A DNA stretch of 34,804 nt from Gemmatimonadaceae bacterium (GTDB lineage: Bacteria; Gemmatimonadota; Gemmatimonadetes; Gemmatimonadales; Gemmatimonadaceae). Within the stretch, counting starts at the first letter, position 1. Each line of letters starts with the position of its first letter. The notes below the pieces were generated by a model. That model made no database searches. It was given only the letters and a program-made list of their open reading frames with translations, and was not told the origin of the DNA. Of the stretch, positions 1,089 through 29,713 are shown piece by piece. Where the stretch lies: contig JAICLH010000011.1 of NCBI GenBank assembly GCA_025927495.1, positions 1 to 34,804 on the forward strand. The letters are read 5' to 3'. A program made the position numbers and the translations under genes.

Positions 1089-2150
1089 ATGCACTCTGAC
1101 GAGCACATACTGGAATACGCCGGCTCCTTCCGCCTCGTACGCAAAATCGCGCAGGGCGGCATGGCCACGGTCTACGAGGCCGAGCATCTGGGGCCCGCCG
1201 GTTTCGCCAAACGCATCGCGCTCAAAGTCATCCATCCGCACTACGCCAAAGAGAAGACCTGGCTCCAGCTCTTCATCGACGAAGCCAAGCTTTCGGCGAA
1301 CCTCGTCCACGGCAACATCGTCCAGATCTACCAACTCGGCGAAGTCGAAGGGCAGTACTACATCGCCATGGAGTACATCAAGGGTCCCACGCTGCGCAAC
1401 ATGATCGAGCGGCACCGCGAGCTCGATCGATTGATCCCGGTGCACGTCGCCGCGTACGTCACGAGCCGCGTGTGTCGCGCGCTCGACTTCGCCCACACGT
1501 ATGCCGGACCCGATGGCCGCCCGCTCGACATCGTGCACCGCGACGTTTCGCCTAACAACATCATGTCGACGTGGGACGGCCACATCAAACTGGCCGACTT
1601 CGGCATCGCCAAAGCCAAGACGTCCTCCGATCCCATGGACGCGTCGCCGATGCTGATGATGGGCAAGAAGCACTACATGAGCCCCGAACAGATCTTAGGC
1701 CTCGACGTCGATGGCCGCAGCGACGTGTTCGCCATTGGCGTGGTGCTCTACGAGCTGCTCACGCTCGAGCCGTTGTTCTACGAGGATGCCACCGAGTTGT
1801 TGATCGACGAAGTGACGTGGCGCCCGCTCCCCAACATTCGCGAGAAAGTCCCCGCCGTTCCCAAGGCCATCGAAGAAGCGCTCATGGCGGCACTCGATCG
1901 CGATCCGGCACACCGGCCCACCGCCGCCACATTCGGGAAGACGCTCGACCGCTGGTGCGAAGCCCAATCTGTGGTGGCAACGCCCGATCGGTTGCAGGAT
2001 CATCTCGCGGCGCTCTTCCCGACGACGTATCAGCCGTCCGCCGCCGGCGCCGAAATCACGCGCTTCTCCAACTTCAAGCACGGACTGCGCCGCAACGGCG
2101 CGCACCAGCGCGGCTGGTTTGGGCGACTCCTCCACGGCATGCGCGTCTGA
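1089..2150 (+). CDS. Serine/threonine protein kinase; the ORF is open from 1035, likely start ATG 1089
   Basis: Hanks motifs GGMATVYEAEH, ALKVIH, HRDVSPNNIM, DFGIAKA, MSPEQILG, DVFAIGVVLYELLT. Confidence 0.93.
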   Translation: MHSDEHILEYAGSFRLVRKIAQGGMATVYEAEHLGPAGFAKRIALKVIHPHYAKEKTWLQLFIDEAKLSANLVHGNIVQIYQLGEVEGQYYIAMEYIKGPTLRNMIERHRELDRLIPVHVAAYVTSRVCRALDFAHTYAGPDGRPLDIVHRDVSPNNIMSTWDGHIKLADFGIAKAKTSSDPMDASPMLMMGKKHYMSPEQILGLDVDGRSDVFAIGVVLYELLTLEPLFYEDATELLIDEVTWRPLPNIREKVPAVPKAIEEALMAALDRDPAHRPTAATFGKTLDRWCEAQSVVATPDRLQDHLAALFPTTYQPSAAGAEITRFSNFKHGLRRNGAHQRGWFGRLLHGMRV

Positions 2151-2195
2151 CCGGCGCACTCACCAGGGCGCGCCGCGAGCGTTAGATTCTGCCGC

Positions 2196-2741
2196 ATGCG
2201 GATCTATACGCGCACCGGTGACAAGGGCGACACGGGATTGTTCGGCGGTGGACGGGTCTCGAAGGACGATCCGCGCGTCGAAGCTTACGGCGAAGTCGAC
2301 GAGCTGAACGCGATCATCGGTCTCGCGCGCTCGATCGAGATGATGCCGCGCATCGATGAAATCCTCGTTCCCGTCCAACGCGATCTGTTCAGCTTGGGTG
2401 CGCTCCTCGCCACTCCGCATCCCGAGAAAGTTCGCCAACAGCTCGAGAAGGCACGCATCGATGATGCGCGCATTGCCGGCCTCGAGCGCGCCATCGACGA
2501 CGGTGAAGCCGAGCTCACGCCGCTCACCGCGTTCATTCTTCCGGGCGGGACGCCCAAGTCGGCGGCACTGCACGTCGCGCGCACGGTGTGTCGCCGCGCC
2601 GAGCGTCGCGTGATCGCGTTAGGCCGCGACGTCGAGCTGCCGGCCATCGTCGTCATCTATCTCAATCGCCTGTCCGATCTGCTCTTCGTGCTCGCCCGCG
2701 TCGCCAACCGGCGCGCCGGCGCGGCGGAGGTGACGTGGTAG
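2196..2741 (+). CDS. pduO: Cob(I)yrinic acid a,c-diamide adenosyltransferase, PduO type
   Basis: MRIYTRTGDKGDTGLFGGGRVSKDDPRVEAYGEVDELNAIIGLAR; C-terminal VVIYLNRLSDLLFVLARVAN. Confidence 0.93.
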   Translation: MRIYTRTGDKGDTGLFGGGRVSKDDPRVEAYGEVDELNAIIGLARSIEMMPRIDEILVPVQRDLFSLGALLATPHPEKVRQQLEKARIDDARIAGLERAIDDGEAELTPLTAFILPGGTPKSAALHVARTVCRRAERRVIALGRDVELPAIVVIYLNRLSDLLFVLARVANRRAGAAEVTW

Positions 2742-3844
2742 CACGGCGCCAGCGCGCCCCCACCGCGCTGCGCCTCCTGGACTGCGAGATCCTCGTCGAG
2801 CCCGGTCTGTTAGGCAGCATCGGCGCCGTGGCCGAGCGCGTCGCGCCGGCACACCGCTACGTGATCGTCACCGACGATACGGTAGCCGGACACTACGGCA
2901 CGCGCGTCGTCGACTCGTTCACCGGCGCCCAACCGCTCATGCTCCGTATCCCGCCCGGCGAGTCGCACAAGACGCGCCTCACGTGGGCAAGCCTGACGGA
3001 CGAGATGCTCGACGCCGGCTGCGGACGCGACACCACGGTCATTGCGTTGGGCGGCGGCGTCGTGGGCGACCTCGCTGGATTCGTCGCCGCCACGTTCATG
3101 CGCGGCATTCCGTTCGTGCAGGTGCCGACGACGCTCCTCGCGATGATCGACGCGTCCATCGGAGGCAAAACCGGCGTCGACGCGCCCGCGGGCAAGAATC
3201 TCGTGGGCGCGTTTCACCAGCCTTCGGCGGTCGTCGCCGATCCGCACGCGCTCGCGACGCTGCCCCTCGAGCACCGGCGCGCCGGCGCCGCCGAAGCGAT
3301 CAAACATGGCGTGATCACCGACGCCGCCTACTTCGACCGCGTCGCCGCCGCGCTGCCCGCGCTGCTTCACGACCCTGCCGGCGACGCCATGCACGAGCTG
3401 ATCATCGGCAGCGTCACCATCAAAGCCGGCATTGTGTTAGGCGATGAGCGCGAGCGCGGCATGCGCAAGATCCTCAACTTCGGCCACACACTCGGTCACG
3501 CGATCGAGACCGCGAGCGACTATCGTCTGCTGCACGGCGAAGCCATCGCCATCGGCATGGTGCTCGAGGCATCGCTCGCCGAAATGATCGGCGTCGCCAC
3601 GGCCGGGATCGCCGAGCGCGTGCGCGATGTCGTCGCGCGCACGGGTCTGCCGGTCGCCCCGCCGCCGACGCTCTCGCCGGAACGTCTGCTCGCTCTCACT
3701 CGTACGGATAAGAAAGCGCGAGCCGGCTCGGCCGAATATGCCCTGCCGCTCACCATCGGCACCATGGCCGGCGCCGATACGCAATGGAGCGTGCGCGTCC
3801 GCGACGACGATGTCCTCGCGGTGCTGCGCGCCGCATCGCGCTGA
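2735..3844 (+). CDS. aroB: 3-dehydroquinate synthase; likely GTG start at 2735 overlapping the upstream stop (ORF open from 2588)
   Basis: TVIALGGGVVGDLAGFVAATFMRGIPFVQVPTTLLAMIDASIGGKTGVD; KILNFGHTLGHAIE; GMVLEA. Confidence 0.95.
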   Translation: MVARRQRAPTALRLLDCEILVEPGLLGSIGAVAERVAPAHRYVIVTDDTVAGHYGTRVVDSFTGAQPLMLRIPPGESHKTRLTWASLTDEMLDAGCGRDTTVIALGGGVVGDLAGFVAATFMRGIPFVQVPTTLLAMIDASIGGKTGVDAPAGKNLVGAFHQPSAVVADPHALATLPLEHRRAGAAEAIKHGVITDAAYFDRVAAALPALLHDPAGDAMHELIIGSVTIKAGIVLGDERERGMRKILNFGHTLGHAIETASDYRLLHGEAIAIGMVLEASLAEMIGVATAGIAERVRDVVARTGLPVAPPPTLSPERLLALTRTDKKARAGSAEYALPLTIGTMAGADTQWSVRVRDDDVLAVLRAASR

Positions 3845-3864
3845 TCACCTTCGAGGAGCCCAGG

Positions 3865-4041: not shown

Positions 4042-4194
4042 CGGATGGTTTCGGCCGGATACGCGCTACGTTCGCTGTTCCATCGGGCCCCCGTTTCTGC
4101 GCGCGATAGAACGCATGGGACCCGCAAATCGTTGTGCCCCAATGCAATTACCCGGGAGCGACACAAGGACCTGTCACGGTATGAATCGTGGCTG

Positions 4195-4223
4195 TTGACC
4201 TAACCGGGGGCTCGCGTTATCGT
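4195..4223 (+). promoter_or_regulatory. Candidate sigma-70 type promoter for the sigma factor gene (TTGACC-N17-TATCGT)
   Basis: TTGACC at 4195-4200, 17-nt spacer, TATCGT at 4218-4223, in the intergenic region upstream of the CDS at 4298. Confidence 0.45.
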
Positions 4224-4297: not shown

Positions 4298-5191
4298 ATG
4301 GAGCATGTGGCCGAGAGCAGGTCCAAAGGGTTTTTTCGCTCTTCTCCCTCCACGGCTTTCGATCAGTATCTCCAAGACATCCAGAAGCTTCCCCTCATAA
4401 CCGAACCCGAAGAAGAACGACGTCTCGCGCGTCGCGCGCAGAAAGGTGATGAGCGCGCCGCGGAACGCCTCGTGACCGCCAACCTTCGATTCGTCATTTC
4501 GTACGTCAAGAAATATCAGGGGCACGGTCTGGATCTGAGCGAGTTGGTGGCCATCGGGAACGAAGGACTCCTCAAAGCCGTCAAGAAGTTCGATCCGGAC
4601 CAGGGCGTGAAGTTCATCTCGTACGCCGTATGGTGGGTCAGACAAGCCGTCCTGAAAGCCCTCGCCGAACAGACCCGCTCCGTCCGCATTCCCCTCAATC
4701 AAAACTCGCAGCTCATCAAGCTCGCTCGCGCCGAAACGGTGCTCGCGCAGGTGCTCAAGCGCGACCCCACCGACGACGAGATCAGCCGCTTGATCGAGGA
4801 GACGCCGGAGACGGTGCGCGCCGCGCGGCAGATGTCGGCCACCGAAGTCTCGCTCGACGCGCCGATCGATCGCAGCGACCGCGAAGCGGCTACGTTAGGC
4901 GAACGATTCGTCGGTGTGGACGGTATCGAGATCGAGGACACTACCGACTTCAAGCTGATGCGCGAATTCATCGACCGCGCGTTCCGCAAATACTTGACGC
5001 CTCGCGAGCGGAAAATCCTGTATCTGTACTACGGCCTCGAGGAAGGATCCGAGGCCATGACGCTCGAGAAGATCGGCGCGCTCATGGGCGTCACCCGCGA
5101 GCGCATCCGCCAGATCCGCGAGCGCGCCTTCGAGAAGCTCCGCGACTCGCCCGACGGCGCCGCTCTGGCCGGTTTCTGGAACGCCGCCTGA
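4298..5191 (+). CDS. RNA polymerase sigma factor, sigma-70 family (RpoD/SigA-like, group 1/2)
   Basis: FDQYLQDIQKLPLIT; ANLRFVISYVKKYQGHGLDLSELVAIGNEGLLKAVKKFDPDQGVKFISYAVWWVRQAVLKAL; region 4 TLEKIGALMGVTRERIRQIRERAFEKLR. Confidence 0.96.
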   Translation: MEHVAESRSKGFFRSSPSTAFDQYLQDIQKLPLITEPEEERRLARRAQKGDERAAERLVTANLRFVISYVKKYQGHGLDLSELVAIGNEGLLKAVKKFDPDQGVKFISYAVWWVRQAVLKALAEQTRSVRIPLNQNSQLIKLARAETVLAQVLKRDPTDDEISRLIEETPETVRAARQMSATEVSLDAPIDRSDREAATLGERFVGVDGIEIEDTTDFKLMREFIDRAFRKYLTPRERKILYLYYGLEEGSEAMTLEKIGALMGVTRERIRQIRERAFEKLRDSPDGAALAGFWNAA

Positions 5192-5219
5192 CGGCACCGC
5201 CCGCTTTGCCTAACTGAAT

Positions 5220-5960: not shown

Positions 5961-7387
5961 CGCGCGACGAGCTGGCCGACGCGCTCCGCGCCATCGTCGG
6001 TCCGCGCGGCGTGCTCTCGCGCGCGTCCGAGCTGCTCCCGCTGAGCGCCGATGGGCTGCCCACCTATCGGCTCCCGCCGACCCTGGCCGTGCTCCCATCC
6101 ACGCGGCAGCATGTCATCGATGTGGTGCGGTTGTTGGCACGCGAGGGCGTCGCATTCGTGCCGCGCGGGGCGGGCACCGGACTGTCTGCCGGAGCCCTCG
6201 CCACCGGCGACGCCGTCATCATCGGCCTCAATCGGCTCACACGCATCATCTCGATCGATCCGGTCAATCGCCTCGCGGTCGTGGAGCCCGGCGCGGTGAA
6301 CGTTTCGCTCACGCGCGCGGCCGCCGCGCACGGGCTGCACTACGCGCCCGATCCGTCCAGCCAGACCGCGTGTACCATCGGCGGCAACGTCGCCGAGAAC
6401 TCCGGCGGACCGCACTGCCTCAAGTACGGCGTCACCCTGAACCACGTCGTCGCGGTCACGGTGCTGCTGCCTGACGGCGGTGTCATCACGTTAGGCGACG
6501 CCGATGGCGAGACGCCGGGCTACGATCTGTTGGGCGCATTCGTCGGCTCCGAAGGATGCTTCGGCATCGCGCTCGACGTCACCGTGCGCCTCGTGCCCGA
6601 TCCGCAAGCGGTGCGCACCATGCTCGCCGACTTCATGTCCATCGAAGCCGGTGCGCGCGCCACGTCGGCCGTCATCGCCAGCGGCATTCTCCCCGCGGCG
6701 ATCGAGATGATGGATGGCCCGACCATCCGCGCCGTGGAAGCGTCCATCTACGCCGCCGGCTATCCCGCCGACGCCGAGGCCGTGCTGCTCATCGAGCTCG
6801 ACGGCCTCGAGGCCGGCATCGATGACGAAGCGCGCCGCGTCCAGGCGATGTGCACCGAAGCCGGCGCGCGCACCGTGCGCATCGCGCGCGACGACGCGGA
6901 GCGCGCGCGCCTGTGGCAGGGTCGCAAGAAAGCATTCGGCGCGATGGGCCGCGTCGCGCCCGCGCTCGTCGTCCAGGACGCCGTGATTCCGCGCACGCGG
7001 CTGCCCGATGTGCTGCGCACCATTCACGAAATTGCCGCCCGCTGGAACATCCAGGTGTGCAACGTCTTTCACGCGGGCGACGGCAATCTCCATCCGAACA
7101 TCGCCTTCGACCCGCACGATGCCGACGCGACCGACCGCGTACACCACGCGATGCGCGAGATCATGCGCGCGTGCGTCGATGCCGGCGGCACCATCACGGG
7201 TGAGCACGGCGTCGGACTCGACAAGCTCGAGTACATGCCGCTCATTTTCTCTCCGGAATCGTTGGACGCGCAGTGCCGCCTGCGCAGCGCATTCGATCCC
7301 GAGCGGCGCGCGAATCCCGGGAAGGTCGTCCCCGTCCACGCGTGCCGCGAATGGCTGGCGACGCCGGCCGCGCGAGCGCTCGCATGA
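5957..7387 (+). CDS. glcD: Glycolate oxidase FAD-linked subunit
   Basis: PRGAGTGLSAGALATGDAVIIGLNRL; PDPSSQTACTIGGNVAENSGGPHCLKYG; NVFHAGDGNLHPNIAFDP; GGTITGEHGVGLDKLEYM; GTGA overlap with the upstream gene. Confidence 0.93.
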   Translation: MTRDELADALRAIVGPRGVLSRASELLPLSADGLPTYRLPPTLAVLPSTRQHVIDVVRLLAREGVAFVPRGAGTGLSAGALATGDAVIIGLNRLTRIISIDPVNRLAVVEPGAVNVSLTRAAAAHGLHYAPDPSSQTACTIGGNVAENSGGPHCLKYGVTLNHVVAVTVLLPDGGVITLGDADGETPGYDLLGAFVGSEGCFGIALDVTVRLVPDPQAVRTMLADFMSIEAGARATSAVIASGILPAAIEMMDGPTIRAVEASIYAAGYPADAEAVLLIELDGLEAGIDDEARRVQAMCTEAGARTVRIARDDAERARLWQGRKKAFGAMGRVAPALVVQDAVIPRTRLPDVLRTIHEIAARWNIQVCNVFHAGDGNLHPNIAFDPHDADATDRVHHAMREIMRACVDAGGTITGEHGVGLDKLEYMPLIFSPESLDAQCRLRSAFDPERRANPGKVVPVHACREWLATPAARALA

Positions 7388-8550
7388 CACCGGCCGACAC
7401 CGCCGTGCGTGCGGGTACGACGCAGGATGTGGCCGCGGCGGTAAGGGATGCGGCGGCGCGCCACACACCGCTGCGCGTCGTTGGGCGCGGACACTGGCTG
7501 GATGCCGGCGCGCCCGTGAGTCCCGCGACGCCGCTGGCGCTCGATGCGCTCTCGGGCATCGTCGCGTACACGCCCGGCGACCTCACGCTCACCGCGCGCG
7601 CGGGGACGACGCTGGCCGACATCGCCGCCGTCACGGCCGAGCACGGGCAGTGGCTGGCGCTCGACCCGTTCGGCAGCGACGACGGCACCATCGGCGCCAC
7701 TATCGCCACGGCGTCCGCGGGACCGCTGGCGCACGCGTTCGGCACGCCGCGCGATGCTGCGTTAGGCCTCGAGGTGGTCACGGGCGACGGCGCGATCGTG
7801 CGCACGGGCGGCCGCGTGGTCAAGAACGTTGCCGGCTTCGACCTCACGCGCCTCTTCACCGGCTCCTGGGGCACGCTCGGCGTGATCACCGAGGTCACCG
7901 TTAGGCTCAGGGCGCGGCCGGAGGTGGATGAGACGTGGGCGGTCGCGCTTCCCGACGACGGCGCGATCGGCGCCGCCTGCCGCGCCGCCCGCGGCGCGGC
8001 CGCGGCGCCGATCGCCCTGGAGCTGGTGGACGCGCCGCTGGCCGCGGCGCTCGGGTTAGGCATGCACCCGGCGATGCTCGTGCGCCTCGCCGGGGCGGCG
8101 GCGGCGATGCGGGCGCAGCGCGACGCGCTGCGCCCGCTCGGCGCCGCCGCCCCGGCCCCCGAGGGAATCTGGCAGCGCCTCCGCACCGCCGAACCGCTGG
8201 CGAGCACCGTGCTCCGCCTGTCGCACCGGCCCGATCGTATCGCCGACACGTGGCGCGCGGCCGCCGGCATCCCATCCGCGTACCGACACGCCACCCCGAG
8301 CCGCGGCATCGTCCGCGTGATCGTCTACGGCGACGACGACATCGCCGCGGCCACTGCCCGCGCCGCCGCCCGCTGTACGCTCATCGCCGAGCGCGCACCG
8401 GCCGCCGTCTGGCTCGCCGGCCCCACGCCAGTGCCTAACGCACCACTCTCGGCGCGCATCCGCGCCGCGTTCGACCCCGCCGGCATCCTGAACCCCGGCC
8501 TTGCACCCGACGCCCCACGCTCGCCGGCATGGCCGCCGACTGATGCCTGA
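7384..8550 (+). CDS. glcE: Glycolate oxidase FAD-binding subunit; ATG 7384 overlaps the glcD stop (ORF open from 7273)
   Basis: FAD-binding PCMH-type region LRVVGRGHWLDAG, DGTIGATIATASAGPLAHAFGTPRDAALGLEVVTGDGAIVRTGGRVVKNVAGFDLTRLFTGSWGTLGVITEVTVRL; position between glcD and glcF. Confidence 0.88.
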   Translation: MTPADTAVRAGTTQDVAAAVRDAAARHTPLRVVGRGHWLDAGAPVSPATPLALDALSGIVAYTPGDLTLTARAGTTLADIAAVTAEHGQWLALDPFGSDDGTIGATIATASAGPLAHAFGTPRDAALGLEVVTGDGAIVRTGGRVVKNVAGFDLTRLFTGSWGTLGVITEVTVRLRARPEVDETWAVALPDDGAIGAACRAARGAAAAPIALELVDAPLAAALGLGMHPAMLVRLAGAAAAMRAQRDALRPLGAAAPAPEGIWQRLRTAEPLASTVLRLSHRPDRIADTWRAAAGIPSAYRHATPSRGIVRVIVYGDDDIAAATARAAARCTLIAERAPAAVWLAGPTPVPNAPLSARIRAAFDPAGILNPGLAPDAPRSPAWPPTDA

Positions 8551-9880
8551 CCACGCGCCCCCTTCCCCCTTCCCTCTTCCCCCAGGGACGGCGCCAAGCG
8601 CCGCCCCGCTTCCCTGCGCAAACACCCCGCTCGCCGCCGCGCTTCCGGGCATCATGACCTGCGTCCACTGCGGCTTCTGCCTGCAGGCCTGTCCCACCTA
8701 CCTGGCGTTAGGCGACGAGAACGACTCGCCGCGCGGCCGCATTCTCCTCGTCCGCGCGCTCGCCGAAGGCGCGCTCCCCCTCGACGACCCCGACGTCCGC
8801 ACCCATCTGGACCGCTGCCTCGGCTGCCGCGGCTGCGAAACCGCCTGCCCGTCCGGCGTCCCCTACGGCCACATCCTCGAGGCGGCGCGCGCCACCCTCA
8901 ACGAAACCGAGCCACCGCCGCGCCTCGCGCGCGCCGTGCTCGCCATGTTCGCGCGCCCGCGATTCCTCGCCCTGGCCCTCGCCGGCGCGCGTGTCCTCCG
9001 CCTAACGGGAATCGCCCGGCTGCTCGCGCGCCTCCCCGGCCGCCTGGGCTTTGCCTGCGCGATACTCGCCGCGAGCGCGCCCCCGCTCGCCACCCGCGCC
9101 TATGTGCCAAGCGCGCGCGGCGTCCGCGGAACGGTTGCCGTGCTCGCCGGCTGCGTCATGCGCGGCCTCTTCGCGCACGTCAATCGCGCCACCGAGCGCG
9201 TGCTCTCCACCAACGGTTATCGCATCGTCTCGTCTCCCGGCCAACGCTGTTGCGGCGCGCTCCACGCGCACGCCGGCGACCTCGCCGGCGCGCGCGCCCT
9301 CGCCCGCCGCAACATTGCCGCCTTCGAGCAGACCGGTGCCGAGCACATCGCCGTCAACGCATCGGGTTGCGGCCTCATGATCAAGGAGTACGGACACCTC
9401 CTCGCCGATGATCCCGCCTGGGCCGAGCGCGCCGCCGCGGTCGCCGCCCGCGCCCGCGACGTGAGCGAGCTCCTCGCTGACGCCGGCCCCGCTCCCGGTG
9501 CGCCGATGCCCAGGCGCGTCGCGTACGACGCACCGTGTCATCTCCTCCACGGACAACATCTCGCGCGCCAACCGCTCGCCGTCCTCGCCGCCGTTCCGTC
9601 TCTCGACGTCGTACCGCTTCCAAATGCCGATCAATGTTGCGGCAGCGCCGGCATTTATAGCCTGGTTCAGCCGCTGCTTGCACAGCAGGTCCTCGCACCC
9701 AAACTCACCGAAATCGCGCGAGCGGCGGCGCCGCTCGTCGCGACCGGGAATCCCGGCTGCATGATGCACATCGGCGCCGGCATGCTCCGCGCGCGAATCC
9801 CCGCGCGTACGGTCCACCCCGTGGAGCTGCTCGACGCATCGTACGCCGCAGCCCATGGCGCGACGCCGCCGGACCGTTAG
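8543..9880 (+). CDS. glcF: Glycolate oxidase iron-sulfur subunit; likely ATG 8543
   Basis: Two 4Fe-4S motifs (CVHCGFCLQACP, CLGCRGCETACPSG) and two CCG motifs (RCCGALHAHAG, QCCGSAGIY). Confidence 0.92.
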   Translation: MPDHAPPSPFPLPPGTAPSAAPLPCANTPLAAALPGIMTCVHCGFCLQACPTYLALGDENDSPRGRILLVRALAEGALPLDDPDVRTHLDRCLGCRGCETACPSGVPYGHILEAARATLNETEPPPRLARAVLAMFARPRFLALALAGARVLRLTGIARLLARLPGRLGFACAILAASAPPLATRAYVPSARGVRGTVAVLAGCVMRGLFAHVNRATERVLSTNGYRIVSSPGQRCCGALHAHAGDLAGARALARRNIAAFEQTGAEHIAVNASGCGLMIKEYGHLLADDPAWAERAAAVAARARDVSELLADAGPAPGAPMPRRVAYDAPCHLLHGQHLARQPLAVLAAVPSLDVVPLPNADQCCGSAGIYSLVQPLLAQQVLAPKLTEIARAAAPLVATGNPGCMMHIGAGMLRARIPARTVHPVELLDASYAAAHGATPPDR

Positions 9881-9984: not shown

Positions 9985-11082
9985 ATGACCGCAGGTTCCA
10001 TCGTCACAGGCACGTTCCCCTCCGTTGGCGACGTCGGCGGACACTCCGTGGTCATGCACTATGGCCACATCGCCGGCGAGTACGCCTCGTTGCGCACGTC
10101 GGCGATGCTCATCGACCGCAGCGCCCGCGGCCGCGTCCGCATCGAGGGCGACAAAGCGGCCGAGCTCCTCACCGGCCTCGTGACTAACGACGTCATGGCC
10201 TTGCAGCCGGGCCACGGGCAGTACGCCGCCGCGCTCAACCCGAAGGGCAAGATCGTCGCCGATATCCGCATCTTCCGTTTCGACGATCATCTGCTCGTCG
10301 ACGCGCCCCCGCGTGCGCAGGCCGGCTGGCTCGCGCTCGTGCGCAAGTACATCAATCCGCGCCTTGCGCCGTATCACGACGCGTCCGGCACCGCGCGGGA
10401 TCTGGGCGTATTCGGCGTCCAATCGCGGCGCATCGTGTCCGAGATCTCGGGCCTAACGGGAGAATCGCTCGCCGCGCTTGCGCCGTACGGCCACGTGCGC
10501 GCCGTGCTCGACGCCGAGACGGCGATCGTCGTGGCGCGCGTCCCCGACCTCGAGCTCGAAGGATACGAGCTGTTCGTCCCCCAGACGGCGTTCGCGGCGC
10601 TCTGGCAGCGCGCGCTCGTCGCCGGTGCGATCCCCTCGGGTCTGCTCGCGTGGGAGATCGCGCGCATCGAAGCGGGCCACCCCGAATGGGGGCTCGACAT
10701 CGACGAGTCCACCATTCCGCAGGAAGCCAACTTCGACGAACTGCACGCGATTTCGTATACCAAGGGCTGCTACGTTGGGCAGGAAGTCGTGGCGCGCGTC
10801 CACTTCCGCGGCCACGTCAATCGGCATCTGCGCGGAATTCGCTGCGGCCATCACGAGCCGCCGCCCGAACACGCCGCACTGCTCGATGACGCCGGCAAAC
10901 AAGTCGGCGACGTGCGCACCAGCGCGCTCTCGCCGCGACTCGGCGCAATCGCGCTCGCTATGGTGCGCCGCGAAATCGCACCCGGCGCGGTGCTGCGCGT
11001 GCAGTGGCCCCCGCCCGCATCACCCGATCCGCGCAGCGAAGTACAAGCGGAATTGTTCGCGCTGCCGTTTCCGCTCGACTGA
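9985..11082 (+). CDS. ygfZ: Folate-binding YgfZ/GcvT-like protein; likely ATG 9985
   Basis: YgfZ signature YTKGCYVGQEVVARVHFRGHVNRHLRG; GcvT-like N-terminus LIDRSARGRVRIEGDKAAELLTGLVTNDV. Confidence 0.87.
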   Translation: MTAGSIVTGTFPSVGDVGGHSVVMHYGHIAGEYASLRTSAMLIDRSARGRVRIEGDKAAELLTGLVTNDVMALQPGHGQYAAALNPKGKIVADIRIFRFDDHLLVDAPPRAQAGWLALVRKYINPRLAPYHDASGTARDLGVFGVQSRRIVSEISGLTGESLAALAPYGHVRAVLDAETAIVVARVPDLELEGYELFVPQTAFAALWQRALVAGAIPSGLLAWEIARIEAGHPEWGLDIDESTIPQEANFDELHAISYTKGCYVGQEVVARVHFRGHVNRHLRGIRCGHHEPPPEHAALLDDAGKQVGDVRTSALSPRLGAIALAMVRREIAPGAVLRVQWPPPASPDPRSEVQAELFALPFPLD

Positions 11083-11781: not shown

Positions 11782-13878
11782 GTGACCGCTCCTGTCATGG
11801 TGCCATCCGGTTCGCACGTCGTGCGTGCCGCGTGCCCGCACGATTGCCCCGATACGTGTGCGATGCTCGTCACCGTCGAGAACGGACGCGCCACGCGTGT
11901 CGCCGGCGATCCCGAGCATCCATTCACGCAGGGATTCCTCTGCGCGAAAGTGAATCGCTACGTCGAGCGCACGTATCACGCCGACCGCCTTACGCAACCA
12001 CTCCGGCGCGTCGGCGCAAAGGGACGCGGGGCGTTCGAGCCGATCTCCTGGGACGATGCGCTCGACGAGATCGCCGCTCGCCTTACGGAAATCGCGCGAT
12101 CGGCGCATGGGCCGCAAGCGATTCTCCCGTATTCGTACGCCGGCACCATGGGCCTCGTGCAAGGCGCTTCGATGGATCGCCGGTTCTTCCATTTGCTCGG
12201 CGCGTCGAAGCTCGACCGCACCATCTGTTCGATGGCCGGCACCGTCGGCATGCGCATGACGGTCGGCGCGAACATCGGTGCCGACGCCGAAGGAATTCCG
12301 GACAGCGACCTGGTGCTGTTGTGGGGCACGAACACGCTCACCTCCAATCCGCATCTGTGGCCGTTCGTGCTCGAGGCGAAGCGCAAGGGCGCGCCGATCA
12401 TCGCCATCGACCCGCTGCGCACGCGCACCGCCCAACAGTGCGATGAATGGATTCCCATTCGCCCCGGCACCGATGCCGCGTTCGCGTTAGGACTCATGCA
12501 CGTGTTGTTCGCCGACGAACTCGTCGACCAGGACTACATGGAGCGATACACGCTCGGCGAAGCCGAGCTGCGCGCGCGCGCGGCGGAATATCCGCCCGAG
12601 CGCGTCGCCGGCATCACCGGTATCGCCGCATCGACCGTCGTCGATGTCGCCCGACGGTACGGCCGCGCGCGCGCCGCGTTCATTCGGGTGAACTACGGAT
12701 TGCAGCGACACGCCGGCGGCGGCATGGCGGTGCGCACCATCGCGTGCCTGCCCGCGATCACGGGCCACTGGCGGCGCGCCGGCGGCGGCGTGCAGCTCTC
12801 CACCAGCGCGAACTTCACGTTCGACCGCGCGACGGTGGAGCGACCCGATCTGTCGCCGCCCGTGCGCACCATCAACATGATCCGGTTAGGCGAGGCGCTC
12901 ACCCGCCCCGACGCCGGTGTCGGCGGCCCGCCGGTTCGCGCGCTCGTCGTCTACAATTCGAATCCGGCCGCCGTCGCTCCGGATCGCACCATGGTGCTCA
13001 CAGGGCTGGCGCGGTCCGACCTGTTCACGGTCGTCCTCGAGCACTTTCAAACCGACACCGCCGACTGGGCCGACATCGTCCTGCCGGCGACCACGCAGCT
13101 CGAGCACTGGGATCTGCACCTGTCGTACGGCCACCACTACGTCGCGCTCAATCAACCGGCCATTCCGCCGGTCGGTGATGCTAAGCCTAACAGCGAGATC
13201 TTCCGGCTGCTCGGCGCGCGCATGGGCCTCGACCATGCGGTGATGCGCGACGATGACCAGACGCTCATTCGCCAGGCGCTCGAGGGCGGCGGCCGCAACC
13301 TGAACGGGGTCACGTTCGAGGCGTTGCTCGAGCGCGGATGGATGCGGCTCGCGGTCCCGCGGCCGTACCTGCCGTTCGCCCACGGCGGATTCCTAACGCC
13401 GAGCGGCCGATGCGAGTTCGTGTCGGAGCGACTAGCCGACATGGGCCTCGATCCGCTGCCCACGTACACGCCGCCGTACGAGTCGCCCGAGCGCGCGCCG
13501 GAGCTCGCCCAACGATTCCCGCTCACGCTCATCTCGTCGCCCGCGCACCAGTTTCTCAACAGCACGTTCGTCAACGTGGACGTGCTGCGCCGCGCGGCGC
13601 GCGAGCCCGAGTTAGTCATCCACCCCGCGGACGCTGCGCCGCGCGACATCGTGCCCGGATCGCGCGTGCTCGTGCACAACGACCGCGGCGAGTTCCTCGC
13701 CATCGCGCGCGTCGAAGACGGCGTGCGCGAAGGAACCGTATGGGCACCGTCCATCTGGTGGGGCAAGTTCGCCGCCGACGGTCGCAACGCCAACCACACG
13801 ACGTCGCAACGCGAGACCGACCTCGGCCACGGCCCCGTCTTTTACGACAACCTCGTCGAGGTGACTCCCGCGGATTAG
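11782..13878 (+). CDS. Molybdopterin oxidoreductase family protein (DMSO reductase superfamily) with N-terminal 4Fe-4S site
   Basis: ACPHDCPDTCAMLVTVENGRATRVAGDPEHPFTQGFLCAKV; RRVGAKGRGAFEPISWDDALDEIA; VLLWGTNTLTSNPHLWPF; C-terminal molydop-binding region. Confidence 0.9.
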   Translation: MTAPVMVPSGSHVVRAACPHDCPDTCAMLVTVENGRATRVAGDPEHPFTQGFLCAKVNRYVERTYHADRLTQPLRRVGAKGRGAFEPISWDDALDEIAARLTEIARSAHGPQAILPYSYAGTMGLVQGASMDRRFFHLLGASKLDRTICSMAGTVGMRMTVGANIGADAEGIPDSDLVLLWGTNTLTSNPHLWPFVLEAKRKGAPIIAIDPLRTRTAQQCDEWIPIRPGTDAAFALGLMHVLFADELVDQDYMERYTLGEAELRARAAEYPPERVAGITGIAASTVVDVARRYGRARAAFIRVNYGLQRHAGGGMAVRTIACLPAITGHWRRAGGGVQLSTSANFTFDRATVERPDLSPPVRTINMIRLGEALTRPDAGVGGPPVRALVVYNSNPAAVAPDRTMVLTGLARSDLFTVVLEHFQTDTADWADIVLPATTQLEHWDLHLSYGHHYVALNQPAIPPVGDAKPNSEIFRLLGARMGLDHAVMRDDDQTLIRQALEGGGRNLNGVTFEALLERGWMRLAVPRPYLPFAHGGFLTPSGRCEFVSERLADMGLDPLPTYTPPYESPERAPELAQRFPLTLISSPAHQFLNSTFVNVDVLRRAAREPELVIHPADAAPRDIVPGSRVLVHNDRGEFLAIARVEDGVREGTVWAPSIWWGKFAADGRNANHTTSQRETDLGHGPVFYDNLVEVTPAD

Positions 13879-16012: not shown

Positions 16013-16033
16013 CCCGCACGTCCGGCACGCGCC

Positions 16034-18097: not shown

Positions 18098-19384
18098 ATG
18101 CGGTCGCACACGTATTCGAAGTTCAGTCCCGAGATGGCGGACGCCATCGACCTCCAATCGCTCCTCGACAAGCTCGCCGATTTCCTCCTGCAGTCAGGCT
18201 TCGCGGGCGGCAAGATGCAGCACCCGTATTGGGGCGAGTTCGGCGGAGACGCCGACCGCTCCATGGAAGCCCTGCGCGAGGCGATTCTCAATGCGTTGAT
18301 GGATAGCGGACAGTTTACACCGGAGATGCTCGACGCGCTGCGCGGCGACGCCGATGACGATGGAGAAAGCACCGCAAAGCTCGCCAAACTGCTGGATGAC
18401 ATCGTCCAGCGCCTCGTGCAGGAGGGCTATCTCAATCTCGAGGCGCCGCCGCAGATGCCGGCTGGCCACCAGGAGGTAACCGGTCCAGGTGGACTCGCTC
18501 GAGCTGCCGCCCGCGACGTGCAGTTCCAGCTCACCGAAAAAGGCATCGACTTCCTCGGCTTCAAAACGCTCCGGAGCCTACTGGGTTCGCTCGGCAAGTC
18601 GAGTTTCGGCAGCCACGATACGCCGTACCTCGCCACCGGTATCGAGGCCGACGCCGCGAGCCGCACCTACGAGTTCGGCGACACGATGAATCTCGACGTG
18701 AACGCCACGCTGCAGAACGCGCTCATTCGCAACGGCAACCTCGACGTCCCCATCGACCTCGACTACTCCGATTTGATGGTGCGTCAGGCAGAGTACCGCT
18801 CATCGTGCGCCACGGTACTCATGCTCGACACCTCGCACTCGATGATTCTCTACGGTGAGGATCGCTTCACGCCCGCCAAGAAGGTGGCGCTGGCGCTCAC
18901 CCACCTCATTCGCACGCAGTTCCCGGGCGACACCCTCCGCGTCGTGCTCTTCCACGACTCCGCGGAGGAGATTCCGCTCGCCCGGCTCGCGCATGCCCAG
19001 GTCGGCCCGTACCACACCAACACGGCCGAGGGACTCAAGCTCGCGCGGCGTATCCTGGTCTCGCAAAAGAAGGACATGCGCCAGATCGTCATGATCACGG
19101 ACGGCAAGCCGAGCGCGCTCACGATGCCTAACGGAACCATCTACAAGAATTCGATGGGTCTCGACGCCCTCGTGGCCGCGCAGACGCTCCGCGAAGTGGC
19201 CGACTGTCGTCGCTGCGGCATCATGATCAACACCTTCATGCTCGCCCGCGACCGGGCCCTCGTGGAGTTCGTGAAGCGGGTCGCGGCCATCAGCCGTGGC
19301 AAGGCCTATTTCACCAACACGATGACCCTCGGTCAGTTCATCCTCATGGACTTCCTCCGGAGGAAAACGCGCAAGGTTTCCTGA
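18098..19384 (+). CDS. VWA domain-containing protein (probable partner of a ChlI/MoxR AAA ATPase)
   Basis: [52 protein letters not shown] (MIDAS DTSHS, ITDG). Confidence 0.88.
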
Positions 19385-19462: not shown

Positions 19463-21355
<1,893 letters not shown>

Positions 21356-21371
21356 CGAAACGGCCCGCGCG

Positions 21372-22550
21372 CTACAGGCGCGGCGCGATCGCGAGATCCA
21401 GCTCGAAGCTGAAGCGCGTCCCCTCGGTGGCGCTGGTGTCCACGTGAAGCGTACTGCCGAGCGCTGCGACGAGCTTACGGCAGATGGACAACCCGAGTCC
21501 CGCGCTCGAGAACGTGTACTCGCCCGCGTTCCGCCGGCGGCGGAACGTCTCGAACAAACAGCTCATCACTTCCGGCGGTATGCCGCGACCCGTGTCCTGC
21601 ACGGAGAACGCGAGCCGCGTGCGCGACAGCTGCTTCGCACTCAGGTCGACCTGCCCCTCGCTCGTGAACTTGAGCGCGTTCGTGGTCAGGTTGAGCAGCA
21701 CACGGTTCAAGGCGCCCGGGTGGCCTAACCGGAAATCCGCGTCCGGCGTGGTGAGCGTCACCGTCAGACCCTTCTCCTCGGCCATCGGGAGCACGATGTC
21801 CCGCACCGAGCGCATGAGGTCAGCGACCGAGAATGGCACCGGCGCGGTGTCCACCAGGCGATCGCCGCCGCGCGCCAGCTCGATGACGTCGCTCGCCATC
21901 CCGCTCAGCCCGAATGCCGCACTGTAAATGAGGCCGAGCTGACGCTCCTGCACCGGATTCACGACGCCGCTCTGCGCCTTTCTGAGCGTCTCGGCCAAAA
22001 ACAGGATCGACGCCAACGGAGACCGGAGGTCGTGCGCAACCTCGACGATCAGCTCCAGACCACCAGCGCCCGACAACCGCGTCGCGAAGCGATGCGCCTC
22101 GTCGCGATCCAACGCCACCTGCACGCTCTCGATCGCGGTGAGAAGTGAAATGATCTCGGCAGCCGGCACCGCTTCGCGCATCCCGGATAGTTCCGAGACC
22201 AGCGCCGCGCGCAGAAGGTTGAGAACCCGCTGGACCGGCACCGCGGGCGCCGCGCGCTCGAGTAACGGCGACTCACCAGCTGCCGCCTGTGCGATCGCGG
22301 CCTGCAACGCCTCCAATTGAAATCGGAGATCGTCCGCGTGCGTGCCCTGCTCCACCGCGCCAGGCGCTGCTGCGACGCGATCAGCCGCGCGACGGAGCGC
22401 CTCACGTAGTGGCTTCACGATCCGCGAATCGGGAGCAGCAAGCGACACCACGGGTGACACGGCGCGCATACTCCCGCTGCCACCCGATGAACGCTCGACG
22501 CGCTCTGGCTCGCGCGCCGTTGCGGTCGCGCGCGGAGCGCGCGACTTCAC
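21372..22550 (-). CDS. Sensor histidine kinase, apparently cytosolic
   Basis: H-box VAHDLRSPLASILFLAETL, N-box LNRVLLNLTTNALKFTSEG, G1 VQDTGRGIPPEV, G2 SAGLGLSICRKLV. Confidence 0.92.
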   Translation of the reverse strand: MKSRAPRATATAREPERVERSSGGSGSMRAVSPVVSLAAPDSRIVKPLREALRRAADRVAAAPGAVEQGTHADDLRFQLEALQAAIAQAAAGESPLLERAAPAVPVQRVLNLLRAALVSELSGMREAVPAAEIISLLTAIESVQVALDRDEAHRFATRLSGAGGLELIVEVAHDLRSPLASILFLAETLRKAQSGVVNPVQERQLGLIYSAAFGLSGMASDVIELARGGDRLVDTAPVPFSVADLMRSVRDIVLPMAEEKGLTVTLTTPDADFRLGHPGALNRVLLNLTTNALKFTSEGQVDLSAKQLSRTRLAFSVQDTGRGIPPEVMSCLFETFRRRRNAGEYTFSSAGLGLSICRKLVAALGSTLHVDTSATEGTRFSFELDLAIAPRL

Positions 22551-24702: not shown

Positions 24703-27213
24703 ATGACCGGCAACTACATCCCTTCGAATCTTCCCGTCGAGCGCGGCCCGGATCCGAACTTCCCGGCGTTTCTACCGCAAGGCGGCTGGCCGCAGTGGGG
24801 CTCACAGAACGCCGACGAACCTGGAATACCGTGGGCGCGTTACTTCGCTGCCCTCAGGCGTTATAAATGGCTCATCTTGATCTTGGTCATCGTCGGCGGT
24901 GCAGCCGGCGTCATCGTGGCCAGGTTTCTACCGCCTGAGTACTCAACGCAGGGACAACTCTGGATCAATGACTCAGGCGCCGCCGCCCAGCGAAGCGAGA
25001 CGCCTGGACCTCTCCAGCCCGATGAGCTTCTCGCCGCCGGTGCATGGGCCGATCTCCTCAAGAGCTCGACCATCATGGACCGCGTGGTGAAGAAGATGTC
25101 GTTGTACCTGTGGCCGACGAGTTTGTCCGATTCCGCGGTCTTCGACGGATTCCAACCCGGCCCCGGATTCCGCGCCGGGAGTTACGCGCTGCGCATCGAT
25201 CCCACTGGTCACAAATATTCGATCGTGACCGATCAGGGTGCGGTCGTCGAATCGGGCAATGTCGGAGACTCCGTTGGGCGGACGCTCGGTTTCCTGTGGA
25301 GGCCGCGGGCGGAGACGCTCGGCAAGGGTCGCGCGATTCAGTTCACGGTCGCCGATCCGCGGGACGTCGCCGTCGGGCTGCTGGGCCGGATGGATGTCAC
25401 GCTCCCGGAGCGGAGCGCATTCCTGAAAGTGTCAATGACCGGGCGGAGCCCGCGTCGCACAGCGGCGATCTTGAACGCCGTGATGGCGGAGTTCGTGACT
25501 ACGGCCGGCGAATTGAAGCGCCGCAACCTCGAGCAGAGCTCCGCAATGTTGGGCGACCAGCTCGACACCGCGCGCGAGAACCTTCGCGCGGCCGAATCGG
25601 CGTATCAGTCCTTCCGAGAGGGCTCGATTACGCAGCCGCAAGACGCTGGTCCAGGTGCGGGCGCCGATCCGCTCACCGGCGTCCAACTGGGCGGCAATCA
25701 AGTTCCGGGCGGCGTTGGCCAGGCTGGCATGCCTAACGATCCGCTCGGCGCCGCTAACGCAGCCGGCGGCAACCCGGTGATCGGAAACTATTTCACCGAC
25801 AAGGCACAGCTCGAGCTGTTGCAGCACGATCAGGCAGCACTGCAGCAACTCATTCAGAATCCGAACGCGATCAATGCCGATGCGTTCGTGCCGATTCTCA
25901 CCGCGCATCAGTCGCCGGCGCTGCAGAGCGCGCTGACGGACCTCGCCAAGCGCGAGGGAGAGTTGCGCACCGCGCGCGAGGTCTACACCGAGCAGCACCC
26001 GACGGTGCAGGCACTGCGCACGAGCGTGCAGGTGATGCGCACGCAAACGATTCCGGGAATCCTGCGTGCATTGATTGCCCAGATTCAATCGCGCGAAACT
26101 GATCTCCAGGGTCAGATCGCGTCTGCGGGCAAACAACTCAAGGCGATTCCGGCGCGCACCATCGATCAGATGCGGCTGGAGCGCGACGTGAACACCAAGA
26201 CGCAGCTATACCAGATGTTGCAGGCGCGGTACCAGGAGATGAAGCTGGCGGAAGCGAGCGCGATTCCGGACATCAGCATTCTCGACACCGCCATTGCGCC
26301 GCTCTTGCCCACGAAGAACACGACGCCGAGCATCATCGCGTTCGCGATCGTGGCCAGCTTGGGCGGCGCGCTCGGCCTCGCGCTCTTGCTCGACCACACC
26401 GATCCTCGCTTCCGGTATCCGGAGCAAGTGACGAGCGATCTCGGGCTCACGATCCTCGGCGCGGTGCCGAGCATCAAGCGCGCGCGAAGCGGCGAGCCGA
26501 ACCCCGAGGAGGCCGCGCAGGTAATCGAGGCCTTCCGGACGATCCGAATGAGTCTGTCCAACTCCTACGCCGGAGCAGGCTCCATCGCACTCGCGGTGTC
26601 CAGCCCCGGCCCGGGGGACGGCAAGTCGTTGGTGTCGTCGAATCTCGCGCTGTCGTTCGCGGAAGCGGGCTACCGCACGGTGCTCCTCGATGGCGACACG
26701 CGGCGTGGTCAGCTCCATGCGATGTTCGGTGCGAACCGGCGCCCTGGACTGCTCGACTATCTCGGCGGCGATGCGCCGCTCGAAACCATTCTGCGCACGA
26801 CGACGCACGAGAAGCTCGCGCTCATCCCGTGCGGTACGCGCCGTCACCGTGGCCCCGAGCTCTTGCACTCGCAGGCGATGCTGCAGCTCATGGGCGAGCT
26901 GCGGGCGCGGTACGATGTCATTCTCATCGACAGTCCGCCGCTCGGCGCGGGCGTCGACCCGTTCGTGTTAGGCGCGGCCACCGGCAACTTGCTGATGGTG
27001 CTGCGGACCGGCACGACCGACCGCCGCATGGCCGACGCGAAGCTCAAGCTGGTCAAGCGGCTGCCGATTCGCCTGTTGGGCGCCGTGCTCAACGACATCC
27101 GCGCGCAGGGTGTGTATCGCTATTACACGTACCTCTACGGATACACCACCAGCGAGGACGACGAACTGCCGCAGTTGGCGCCGCAGGTGGGCGAGCTGTC
27201 GGGCAAGAGCTGA
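24703..27213 (+). CDS. Polysaccharide biosynthesis tyrosine autokinase / chain-length regulator (Wzc-like); ORF open from 24655
   Basis: Wzz-like N-terminal region ARYFAALRRYKWLILILVIVGGAAGVIVARFLPPEYSTQGQLWI; P-loop SSPGPGDGKSLVSSNLALSFAEAGYRTVLLDGDTRRG; VILIDSPPLG; C-terminal Tyr cluster YRYYTYLYGYT. Confidence 0.93.
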   Translation: MTGNYIPSNLPVERGPDPNFPAFLPQGGWPQWGSQNADEPGIPWARYFAALRRYKWLILILVIVGGAAGVIVARFLPPEYSTQGQLWINDSGAAAQRSETPGPLQPDELLAAGAWADLLKSSTIMDRVVKKMSLYLWPTSLSDSAVFDGFQPGPGFRAGSYALRIDPTGHKYSIVTDQGAVVESGNVGDSVGRTLGFLWRPRAETLGKGRAIQFTVADPRDVAVGLLGRMDVTLPERSAFLKVSMTGRSPRRTAAILNAVMAEFVTTAGELKRRNLEQSSAMLGDQLDTARENLRAAESAYQSFREGSITQPQDAGPGAGADPLTGVQLGGNQVPGGVGQAGMPNDPLGAANAAGGNPVIGNYFTDKAQLELLQHDQAALQQLIQNPNAINADAFVPILTAHQSPALQSALTDLAKREGELRTAREVYTEQHPTVQALRTSVQVMRTQTIPGILRALIAQIQSRETDLQGQIASAGKQLKAIPARTIDQMRLERDVNTKTQLYQMLQARYQEMKLAEASAIPDISILDTAIAPLLPTKNTTPSIIAFAIVASLGGALGLALLLDHTDPRFRYPEQVTSDLGLTILGAVPSIKRARSGEPNPEEAAQVIEAFRTIRMSLSNSYAGAGSIALAVSSPGPGDGKSLVSSNLALSFAEAGYRTVLLDGDTRRGQLHAMFGANRRPGLLDYLGGDAPLETILRTTTHEKLALIPCGTRRHRGPELLHSQAMLQLMGELRARYDVILIDSPPLGAGVDPFVLGAATGNLLMVLRTGTTDRRMADAKLKLVKRLPIRLLGAVLNDIRAQGVYRYYTYLYGYTTSEDDELPQLAPQVGELSGKS

Positions 27214-27239
27214 TCGCCGCGCTCGACGCACGCGAAAAA

Positions 27240-27277
27240 GGCCGGCCGCGGTAGTCGCACCGCGGCCGGCCCTTTTT
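27240..27277. terminator. Bidirectional intrinsic terminator between convergent wzc-like and cysD genes
   Basis: AAAAA-GGCCGGCCGCGGT-AGTCGC-ACCGCGGCCGGCC-CTTTTT, perfect 13-bp stem with A/T tracts on both sides. Confidence 0.9.
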
Positions 27278-27286
27278 GCGTTCCGA

Positions 27287-28168
27287 TCACATGTATCCGT
27301 CGCGCCGCAAGGACTCGAGACCGCCGCCGTCTTCCTTGTCCTGCGCACGGCCCGACCGCTCCGCAATGTGCGAGAACTTGCCCGTGCGCAGCTCGACGAT
27401 GATCTCGCTCACGTCGCGCGCTTCGGAGTGCACCTTCTGGGTGCACGGGCCGCAGCCTAACGAACGATAGCGGGTGCCGTCGCCGTGATTGTAGTAGAGC
27501 GACACCGTCGGAATCTGTTCGCGTCCGATGTACTCCCAGATGTTCAATTCGGTCCAATCGAGGAGCGGGTGAATGCGCACGTGCGTGCCCGGCGCGAATT
27601 CTGTTTTGTACTGGTTCCAGAACTCGGGCGGCTGATCCTGCACCTCCCACTCGCTCTGCGTGGTGCGTGGGGAGAAGTACCGCTCCTTGGAGCGGCTGCC
27701 TTCTTCGTCCGCACGCGCGCCCACGATGACGCCCGTGAACGGTTCCGTGTTCCGATCCCGCTCGTACGTGCGCGTCGCGTGGTTGAACCGATACCGCGGC
27801 CCTTCACCGCTCAGTGTGCGGCGCAGCGCTTCCGTTTTGAGCAGGCCGCAGCACGTTAGGCGATCGACCGCGCCGTCGGGGTAGGTACGATGCTCCGCCA
27901 GCGCGACCTCATTCTGCCCGTACATGAGGTTCAGGTGCCACTCGGCCGCCAGCTTGTCGCGATAGGCGATCATTTCGGGAATCTTGAATGACGTGTCGAT
28001 GTGCACGAGCGGGAACGGGACGTGTCCGAAGAACGCCTTCCGCGCCAGCCAGAGCATCACCGTGCTGTCTTTCCCGATCGACCACAACATGCACAACTGC
28101 CGGAAGTTTGCGTACGCTTCCCGCAAAATGTGGATGCTTCGATTTTCGAGTTGTTCCAGATGATCCAT
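27287..28168 (-). CDS. cysD: Sulfate adenylyltransferase subunit 2
   Basis: [91 protein letters not shown]. Confidence 0.96.
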
Positions 28169-28190
28169 CGTTCACTCCTGATTCACGGAC

Positions 28191-28910
28191 CTACAGGTTT
28201 CCGCGAATCCGATTCAAGACCTTCCCGCCCGATTCTTCGACGGTCACGCCGCGCGTGTCGATCACGACGTCGGCGTTGGCCGGCGCTTCGTACGGGTCAT
28301 CGATGCCGGTGAAGTTGCGGATCTCGCCGCGTCGGGCTCGTGCGTAGAGCCCTTTCACGTCACGCCGCTCGCACTCCTCCAGTGGTGTCGACACGTAGAC
28401 CTCGACGAAGTTCCGGCACAGCCCGCGCACGAACGCGCGCGATTCCTCGTACGGCGATATGAACGAGGCAACGACGAACACGCCGTTCTCCTCGAGCTTG
28501 CTTGCCAGGTAGCCAACGCGGCGAATGTGCTGGTCGCGGTCGGTGCGTGTAAATCCCGTTGTCGGAAAGAGATGGCGGATCGTGTCGCCATCGAGATATT
28601 CGGCCCGAATGCCCCGGCGTCGCAGCTCGGCGTGGACCCACTGCGCGATGGTCGTTTTGCCCGATCCCGACAATCCGGTGAACCAGATGACCGTTGGCGT
28701 CGGCTCGTGTTTGCCTAACGGAATGCGCTCCCACAGCCGTTCGTGCAACCAGAACAAGAGGATCTTGCCCACCAGCTCGACGACGCCCACGAACAGCGCC
28801 ACCTGCACCCGCTTCGTGAAAACATATACGATGACCGTGGTCGTCAGGCTGCCGAAGATGCGCCACGAGAACGCTTTGGCGAACGACCGGACGTTGGTAT
28901 CACGATGCAT
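28191..28910 (-). CDS. cysC: Adenylylsulfate (APS) kinase with N-terminal DUF2061 membrane domain; likely ATG at 28910 (ORF open to 29318)
   Basis: DUF2061-like RSFAKAFSWRIFGSLTTTVIVYVFTKRVQVALFVGVVELVGKILLFWLHERLWERI, then CysC VIWFTGLSGSGKTTIAQWVHAELRRRGIRAEYLDGDTIRH...ASFISPYEESR. Confidence 0.93.
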   Translation of the reverse strand: MHRDTNVRSFAKAFSWRIFGSLTTTVIVYVFTKRVQVALFVGVVELVGKILLFWLHERLWERIPLGKHEPTPTVIWFTGLSGSGKTTIAQWVHAELRRRGIRAEYLDGDTIRHLFPTTGFTRTDRDQHIRRVGYLASKLEENGVFVVASFISPYEESRAFVRGLCRNFVEVYVSTPLEECERRDVKGLYARARRGEIRNFTGIDDPYEAPANADVVIDTRGVTVEESGGKVLNRIRGNL

Positions 28911-28945
28911 GGTCGAGCCACGCTGTGCGGAGCGCGTCGGCGCCG

Positions 28946-29713
28946 TCAGGCACCAAGAACGAACGAGCCATTGCGCAGCTCCCGCTTGTTGTACGTGAAT
29001 GGTGTCTGCCGACGCCCGTCGCGCGCCGACTCGCGATAGATGCAGTCTCCCGCCGCCACGTCCCATTCCATCGTCGGGCCGAAGCGCGGGTACAAGTCGG
29101 CGCGGCCATCCGCCACCCAGCAGAACTTGAGCGAACTGCCTAACGAAATGCGCTCCTGCACCTGGATGGTGGCCAGATACGCCTCGAGCTCCGACGACGG
29201 ATGCGACCGGCTCTGCACGATGATGCGGCCCCCCGTGGCCGGCCGGTCGCCGCTGTACACGCGCTCCGGCGTCGCACCGCGGTCCTCGCGCCAGCTGCCC
29301 GCGCCTGCTCGCGCCCAATACATGAGATCGAGCACGGGTGCGTAGATGACGCCCATCGTTGGCGCGCCGTGCTCGATGAGCGCGATGTTCACCGTGAACT
29401 CGCCGATGCCCTTCGTGAATTCCTTCGTGCCGTCCAGCGGATCCACGAGCCAGAAGCGCGTCCAGTCACGCCGGGCGTCGTACTCCGGAATGTCCCCTTC
29501 CTCCGACAGCACCGGAATGTCTGGCGTTAGGCGATGCAATCCATCGGCGATCACGGTGTGCGCATCCTGATCGGCCATCGTGAGCGGACTCGCGTTCTCC
29601 TTCCAGGCGACGGCCTGCCGCGTGTCGCTCGACGCGTAGTATCGAAGAATCGCCTGGCCCGCATCGCGGGCCAGATGGCGAATGTCCTCGATGAGCTGCT
29701 CGGCGTTCACCAT
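28946..29713 (-). CDS. cysQ: 3'(2'),5'-bisphosphate nucleotidase
   Basis: [46 protein letters not shown]. Confidence 0.92.

Follow-up and report, generated by a model that had tools for sequence, protein, structure and literature searches.

A dispersed heptamer of Gemmatimonadaceae genomes as a candidate DNA uptake sequence

What maintains a single seven-letter word on both strands, inside and outside genes, along the genome of a soil bacterium? The question is raised by a stretch of 34,804 nucleotides from a Gemmatimonadaceae bacterium (contig JAICLH010000011.1 of assembly GCA_025927495.1; hereafter, the window), in which the heptamer GCCTAAC, or GTTAGGC when read on the opposite strand, is found 33 times. 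The evidence discussed below suggests that GCCTAAC, often followed by G, plays the part of a DNA uptake sequence, that is, of a 'self' tag maintained by biased transformation, a reading to which a probability of about 0.58 can be given.

Enrichment and conservation at the DNA level

For the window, about one copy is predicted by a second-order Markov model fitted to its own letters, against the 33 observed (Poisson p 3e-19 or lower), and none of the words at one mismatch reaches this number, the most frequent being GCCCAAC with 23 copies. An earlier note on this DNA, made from its letters alone, had listed these 33 copies and a zero-order expectation of about 4; every coordinate is exact and the expectation is correct. 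The assembly to which the window belongs, as contig 262, comprises 321 contigs and 3.55 Mb and is 75% complete, and the genomes with which it was compared are mostly metagenome-assembled genomes (MAGs). The whole assembly contains 4347 copies (2212 + 2135 on the two strands), or one per 818 bp, while the reversed control word is present in 650 (324 + 326). The genome-wide 7-mer count suggested in the earlier note places GCCTAAC first in 166 kb of this genome, with 219 copies for 5.8 expected under a second-order Markov model (38-fold). Its density, 1.45 per kb in intergenic and 1.27 per kb in genic DNA, lies in the genome-wide range of uptake sequences (about 0.5-1.5 per kb).

This excess does not come from the encoded proteins. 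After shuffling synonymous codons within genes, on gene calls made in this analysis, 9.5 copies are expected in the 166 kb and 156 are observed (16-fold), with an excess in every phase that lacks an in-frame stop. In genomes dense in the word (carriers), six of which were put through the same shuffle, the enrichment is 14.5-fold for G158 and 16-27-fold for the other five, with an intergenic excess too. Since the excess survives the synonymous-codon shuffle, protein constraint cannot explain GCCTAAC, and a codon-pair cause is equally ruled out; the view of the earlier note, that the motif acts at the DNA level beyond protein-level selection, has withstood the codon-aware null that could have overturned it. 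Codon use is instead redefined by the heptamer: TTA, a rare codon in these GC-rich genomes, is mostly confined to GTTAGGC, which holds 16 of the 28 TTA codons in the listed genes of the window, 95 of 137 in the 166 kb and 136 of 149 in Gemmatirosa, in agreement with what had been noticed from the window.

The copies of the window illustrate this independence from reading frame, since all the codon phases claimed beforehand are found, together with both orientations (17 GCCTAAC and 16 GTTAGGC on the plus strand). The Leu-Gly phase (TTA GGC) accounts for minus-strand copies in aroB (2809..2815 and 3436..3442), in a sigma-70 gene (4894..4900), in a FAD-linked oxidase gene (6490..6496) and at 7761..7767, 8055..8061, 8707..8713, 12885..12891, 16156..16162, 16237..16243 and 26967..26973. 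It also accounts for plus-strand copies in minus-strand genes for an MFS protein (17394..17400), a histidine kinase (21723..21729) and a cysD-like product (27455..27461), in a cysC-like gene (28713..28719) and in an inositol-phosphatase gene with overlapping frames (29138..29144). Pro-Asn copies (CCT AAC), all on the plus strand, are located in a protein kinase gene (1550..1556), in ftsH (20359..20365) and at 8433..8439, 13185..13191, 19126..19132 and 25731..25737. The Leu-Thr phase is read as CTA ACG on the plus strand at 9000..9006 and in a GcvT-like gene (10451..10457), and on the minus strand in the cysD-like gene (27855..27861) and at 29526..29532, and as CTA ACC at the end of ftsH (21342..21348, plus strand). 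Two minus-strand copies are in the Val-Arg phase (GTT AGG C), at 2618..2624 in the long aroB frame and at 7900..7906. In two plus-strand copies, TAA is readable as a stop, at 16007..16013 for the mechanical open reading frame 15341-16012 and at 21350..21356 for the ftsH frame 19463-21355; finally, the copies at 5208..5214 (plus) and 14786..14792 (minus) are outside listed genes. The last 5.3 kb (29533-34804), with cysN-like, GGDEF and polysaccharide-export genes, contain no copy.

Alignment of the window with relatives of its genus reveals how these sites persist. In G100, G097 and G099, at 83-85% identity, the motif is retained at 19/24, 17/24 and 15/19 sites, respectively, compared with 0.32-0.35 for any 7-mer (p from 1e-4 to 5e-6). 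G098, which has fewer copies, retains 8 of 23 (background, 0.21), and G096 retains none of 14 (background, 0.195), its commonest replacement being GCCGAGC, that is, CTC GGC. At Leu-Gly sites of rpoB, TTA GGC is common to carriers of different genera, whereas non-carriers use CTC or CTG GGC. Retention above background and the rpoB pattern together indicate that carriers actively preserve the word where changes would be silent, and copies would erode once a lineage loses whatever reads the word, as seems to have occurred in G096.

Form, orientation and spacing of the word

The base after GCCTAAC is a G for 60% of the copies in the genus of the window and for 88-89% in three other genera, so that the fuller word is GCCTAACG; the preceding base tends to be C or T, and the G (and GA) extension varies by lineage. 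With respect to non-carrier genomes, the one-mismatch words in excess are C2A, C2T and G1T (window's genus), plus T4C, whereas words altered at A5, A6 or C7 are near background and delimit a strict core. In described uptake sequences, mismatch words are likewise over-represented and orientation bias is absent (PMC1939737). As plain decay would favour all transitions and the observed excess is base-specific, the pattern would reflect which bases a DNA-reading protein tolerates, with T4C as an exception, since this change leaves the amino acid unaltered in the main phases (TTA to TTG, CCT to CCC). Vsr-like conversion was considered and rejected, because it would deplete the neighbour words, which are enriched or neutral.

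The behaviour of near matches also bears on a HIP1-like origin, in which a methyltransferase together with methylation-dependent mismatch repair would create and maintain the word. Cyanobacterial HIP1 (GCGATCGC) is also a very frequent short word, is patchily lost and correlates with orphan methyltransferases (PMC4390886). However, HIP1 is palindromic and tracks methyltransferases, whereas GCCTAAC is asymmetric, its near matches are enriched instead of depleted, and no such tracking is seen for the adenine-methyltransferase classes tested. N6_N4_Mtase was not found in carriers G100, G099, G073, G013, G083 and G105, nor were strong N6_Mtase matches in carriers G100, G099, G013 and G105, negatives that cover two adenine classes and leave cytosine and other adenine classes (PF00145, PF02086, PF07669) untested. 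Such an origin is consequently regarded as improbable. The earlier note had left a methyltransferase or restriction-modification site, an uptake-like sequence, a nucleoid-protein site and a HIP1-like repeat unranked; the uptake-like candidate is now favoured, and the two that involve methylation or a HIP1-like palindrome lose ground for the reasons just given.

Adjacent copies are oriented near-randomly relative to each other. Gaps between them are under-dispersed in the window genome (coefficient of variation 0.79), where those under 100 bp make up 6.3% versus 13.2% expected; in G100 short gaps are absent, yet the coefficient is 1.01, and in Gemmatirosa (G073) gaps look random. A role as transcription terminator was discarded, as inverted pairs less than 60 bp apart are few.

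Orientation is central to another reading, in which the word would be the Chi site of a recombination helicase-nuclease (RecBCD, AddAB or AdnAB). Chi is also a short, asymmetric word, over-representation of a 7-8-mer in core genes is as this reading would have it, and carrier G158 has a recC-recB-recD operon. Unlike Chi, GCCTAAC lacks strand bias: in Gemmatirosa, the orientation on the replichores is 83:93 and 54:40 (270 copies, p=0.13), which, with the near-random orientation of neighbours, agrees with the absence of Chi-like polarity put forward in the earlier note. Most carriers are, moreover, without RecBCD and AddAB-type matches. Among the carrier genera of the family examined, RecC is found only in g34, and strong PDDEXK_1 matches, expected of AddAB, are found in 0 of 12 carriers tested, which makes a Chi role very unlikely. 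Among 14 non-carriers, 8 give strong PDDEXK_1 matches and some carry RecBCD in its place, and the non-carrier G096 has addA/addB. As a separate observation, carriers G100, G099, G014, G073, G013, G154, G153, G079, G083 and G105 have neither RecC nor a strong PDDEXK_1 match, whereas at least one of the two is present in 8 of 14 non-carriers (Fisher p ~0.05, uncorrected for ancestry), a contrast between carriers and non-carriers that is confounded by shared ancestry.

In the open-access literature, the heptamer was found tied to nothing but integron attC sites. GCCTAAC conforms to the core of these sites (RYYYAAC / GTTRRRY), and integron integrases are common in the family, so that the copies might be remnants of such sites. 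Co-oriented clusters of GCCTAAC do exist, in L157 (beside an integron integrase), in G266 (C5 12-23 kb) and in G251 (C2); these are probably attC arrays and distinct from the dispersed copies. The dispersed copies, unlike attC, are single, sit inside housekeeping genes, have no partner core and no conserved flank beyond +8, and do not track the presence of an integrase; neither the window genome nor G097-G099 has one that passes the curated cut-off. Their location in core genes, the unpaired cores and the lack of integrase dependence refute an attC origin of the dispersed copies, the chance of which is negligible.

Distribution among lineages, replicons and phages

Across 179 genomes from 35 genera of Gemmatimonadaceae, dense carriers are found in 11 genera (g1, g3, g4, g10, g12, g13, g14, g21, g23, g32 and g34), with 270 to 5,785 copies per genome, except for G096 (g1). 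The remaining 24 genera are near background (3 to about 170 copies), and intermediate counts are present in other families of the order. The survey across Gemmatimonadota that the earlier note had suggested gives thus a mixed picture: the motif is dense in part of the family, but it is not general, and most genera are without it. In an rpoB tree of 26 genomes, carriers are scattered over several subclades, and about seven gains or losses are needed. Mixed close pairs are found as well, with thousands of copies in G099 and G100 versus nine in G096, of the same genus, and with carriers G014 and G013 versus non-carriers G155 and G116, respectively. No replacement word was found in 13 sampled non-carriers. 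In carriers, the word is kept by selection or by biased DNA exchange.

Gemmatirosa kalamazoonensis (plasmid record NZ_CP007129.1) is a carrier in which the word is present on the chromosome and on all three plasmids. A 20 kb segment of its chromosome (L090, G073:C2:2656001-2676000) has no copy, versus about 14 expected, and contains type I restriction-like genes and an N6_Mtase match. Besides, the smallest Gemmatirosa contig (21 kb) and the chromosome start (L031, L042) show identical motif-flanking segments, which suggests duplicated DNA. In another carrier genome, G079, a Cas4g/Cas1g fusion gene was observed (L209, G079:C7).

The word also extends to a tailed-phage contig of a viral collection (IMGVR_UViG_3300003324_000477; L549, L552), with genes for terminase, portal, protease, HK97-type capsid, tape measure and distal tail proteins. 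Its first 21 kb contain 26 copies, a host-like density, in both orientations and mostly as GCCTAACG, and its last 4.5 kb contain none. As temperate phages of Pasteurellaceae accumulate the uptake signal sequence (USS) of their hosts (PMC6776037), this carriage fits the uptake-sequence model in a long-resident prophage. Uptake sequences are expected to be sparse in newly acquired DNA, for which the picture here is mixed: the 20 kb Gemmatirosa segment and the last 5.3 kb of the window lack the word, and the phage contig is rich in it.

Phage and plasmid carriage are also relevant to a reading in which the motif is recognised by an intracellular DNA-binding protein (one that organises the nucleoid, takes part in replication or repair, or belongs to a defence system sparing 'self' DNA), with direct selection on cells and phages. 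The strong constraint at silent sites, the somewhat even spacing in the window genome, the presence on all replicons and the host-like density in the phage contig speak for it. Against it, the patchiness in sister genera and the full erosion in non-carriers would be odd for a core chromosome function, the sampled non-carriers show no replacement word and the 20 kb Gemmatirosa island is devoid of copies. Overall, an intracellular reader is considered unlikely, although worth retaining as an alternative to an uptake sequence.

A related form is found in another phylum. Named genomes were scanned for two nearby octamers, and Chthoniobacterales (Verrucomicrobiota; taxonomy by record titles) were found among the matches listed. 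At least three MAGs of this order have the word (120 copies over 64 kb, on either strand), in the extended form GCCTAACGA (101 copies versus 0.4 expected). It is dispersed at about 1.9 per kb over contigs L254, L259, L262, L267, L278, L321, L325 and L327, with up to 30 copies in 8 kb in L267. Genes in these loci include ATP synthase (atpA), obgE, mnmA and yidC, and the encoded MnmA shares 44% identity with a Gemmatimonadaceae MnmA, which makes the mnmA locus unlike Gemmatimonadaceae contamination. The C2A near match is over-represented here too (7 versus 0.2). Judged from these sequences, the shared core, the shared C2A tolerance and the differing extension look like dialects.

The uptake-sequence reading and its implications

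Uptake words have been described in Neisseriaceae and Pasteurellaceae. The DNA uptake sequence (DUS) of Neisseriaceae, with ComP as receptor, exists, like the word described here, as thousands of dispersed copies in both orientations and in coding and non-coding DNA; it forms dialects around an invariant core, and the same family has genera without DUS (PMC3630211). DUS differs in being another, longer word from other phyla, and no ComP homologue above cut-off was found here. The USS of Pasteurellaceae, with ComN/PpdA as predicted receptor, resembles GCCTAAC in its density of about one copy per kb, 9-bp scale, accumulation in phages and patchy evolution, although the words are unrelated and the A/T-rich flank is not seen here.

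In the proposed mechanism, a competence-pilus receptor would recognise the genome-wide 'self' word on double-stranded DNA, and fragments bearing it would be taken up and recombined preferentially. This bias would spread copies wherever protein coding permits, in both orientations, and would reach the chromosome, plasmids and long-resident prophages, while loss of the reader in a lineage would let copies erode (compare G096). Density, DNA-level constraint, symmetry, spacing, tolerance, the pattern of gain and loss, the copies in a phage and the related word of a second phylum are shown directly, and from them we infer a competence receptor as the reader and transformation as the driver. ComEC is nearly universal in the family, the carriers that miss it being incomplete or highly fragmented assemblies, so that uptake machinery is available. 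GCCTAAC is accordingly regarded as a candidate, not a proven, uptake sequence.

Several points weigh against this uptake-sequence reading. ComEC is present in carriers and non-carriers alike and is thus non-discriminating. The search for a receptor with ComP_DUS (PF16732), the only DUS-receptor family searched, gave sub-cut-off matches in carriers and non-carriers alike, and no paper linking uptake sequences with Gemmatimonadota was found in the open-access literature. The length of the word, 7-9 bp, is below that of DUS (10-12), although close to that of USS (9). Furthermore, phage carriage is also compatible with an intracellular function, and the T4C near matches may be simple decay or a synonymous intermediate.

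A broader scenario, possible but tentative, is that genomes in two phyla, Gemmatimonadota and Verrucomicrobiota, were rewritten by a single DNA reader that moves horizontally and is probably a receptor of the competence pilus. Core GCCTAAC with local G/GA extensions would then form an uptake language common to both phyla, which sister genera have lost repeatedly.

For Gemmatimonadota and Verrucomicrobiota, an uptake sequence would be a novelty. If this reading is true, the exchange of DNA with selection for 'self' arose or spread much more broadly than the two families described, and major soil bacteria would be expected to undergo transformation. Repeated independent loss and the close pairs of genomes with and without the word (G100/G096, G014/G155 and G013/G116) make the maintaining reader or force directly testable, and, if the reading holds, adding GCCTAACG to DNA might render these hard-to-engineer soil bacteria transformable.

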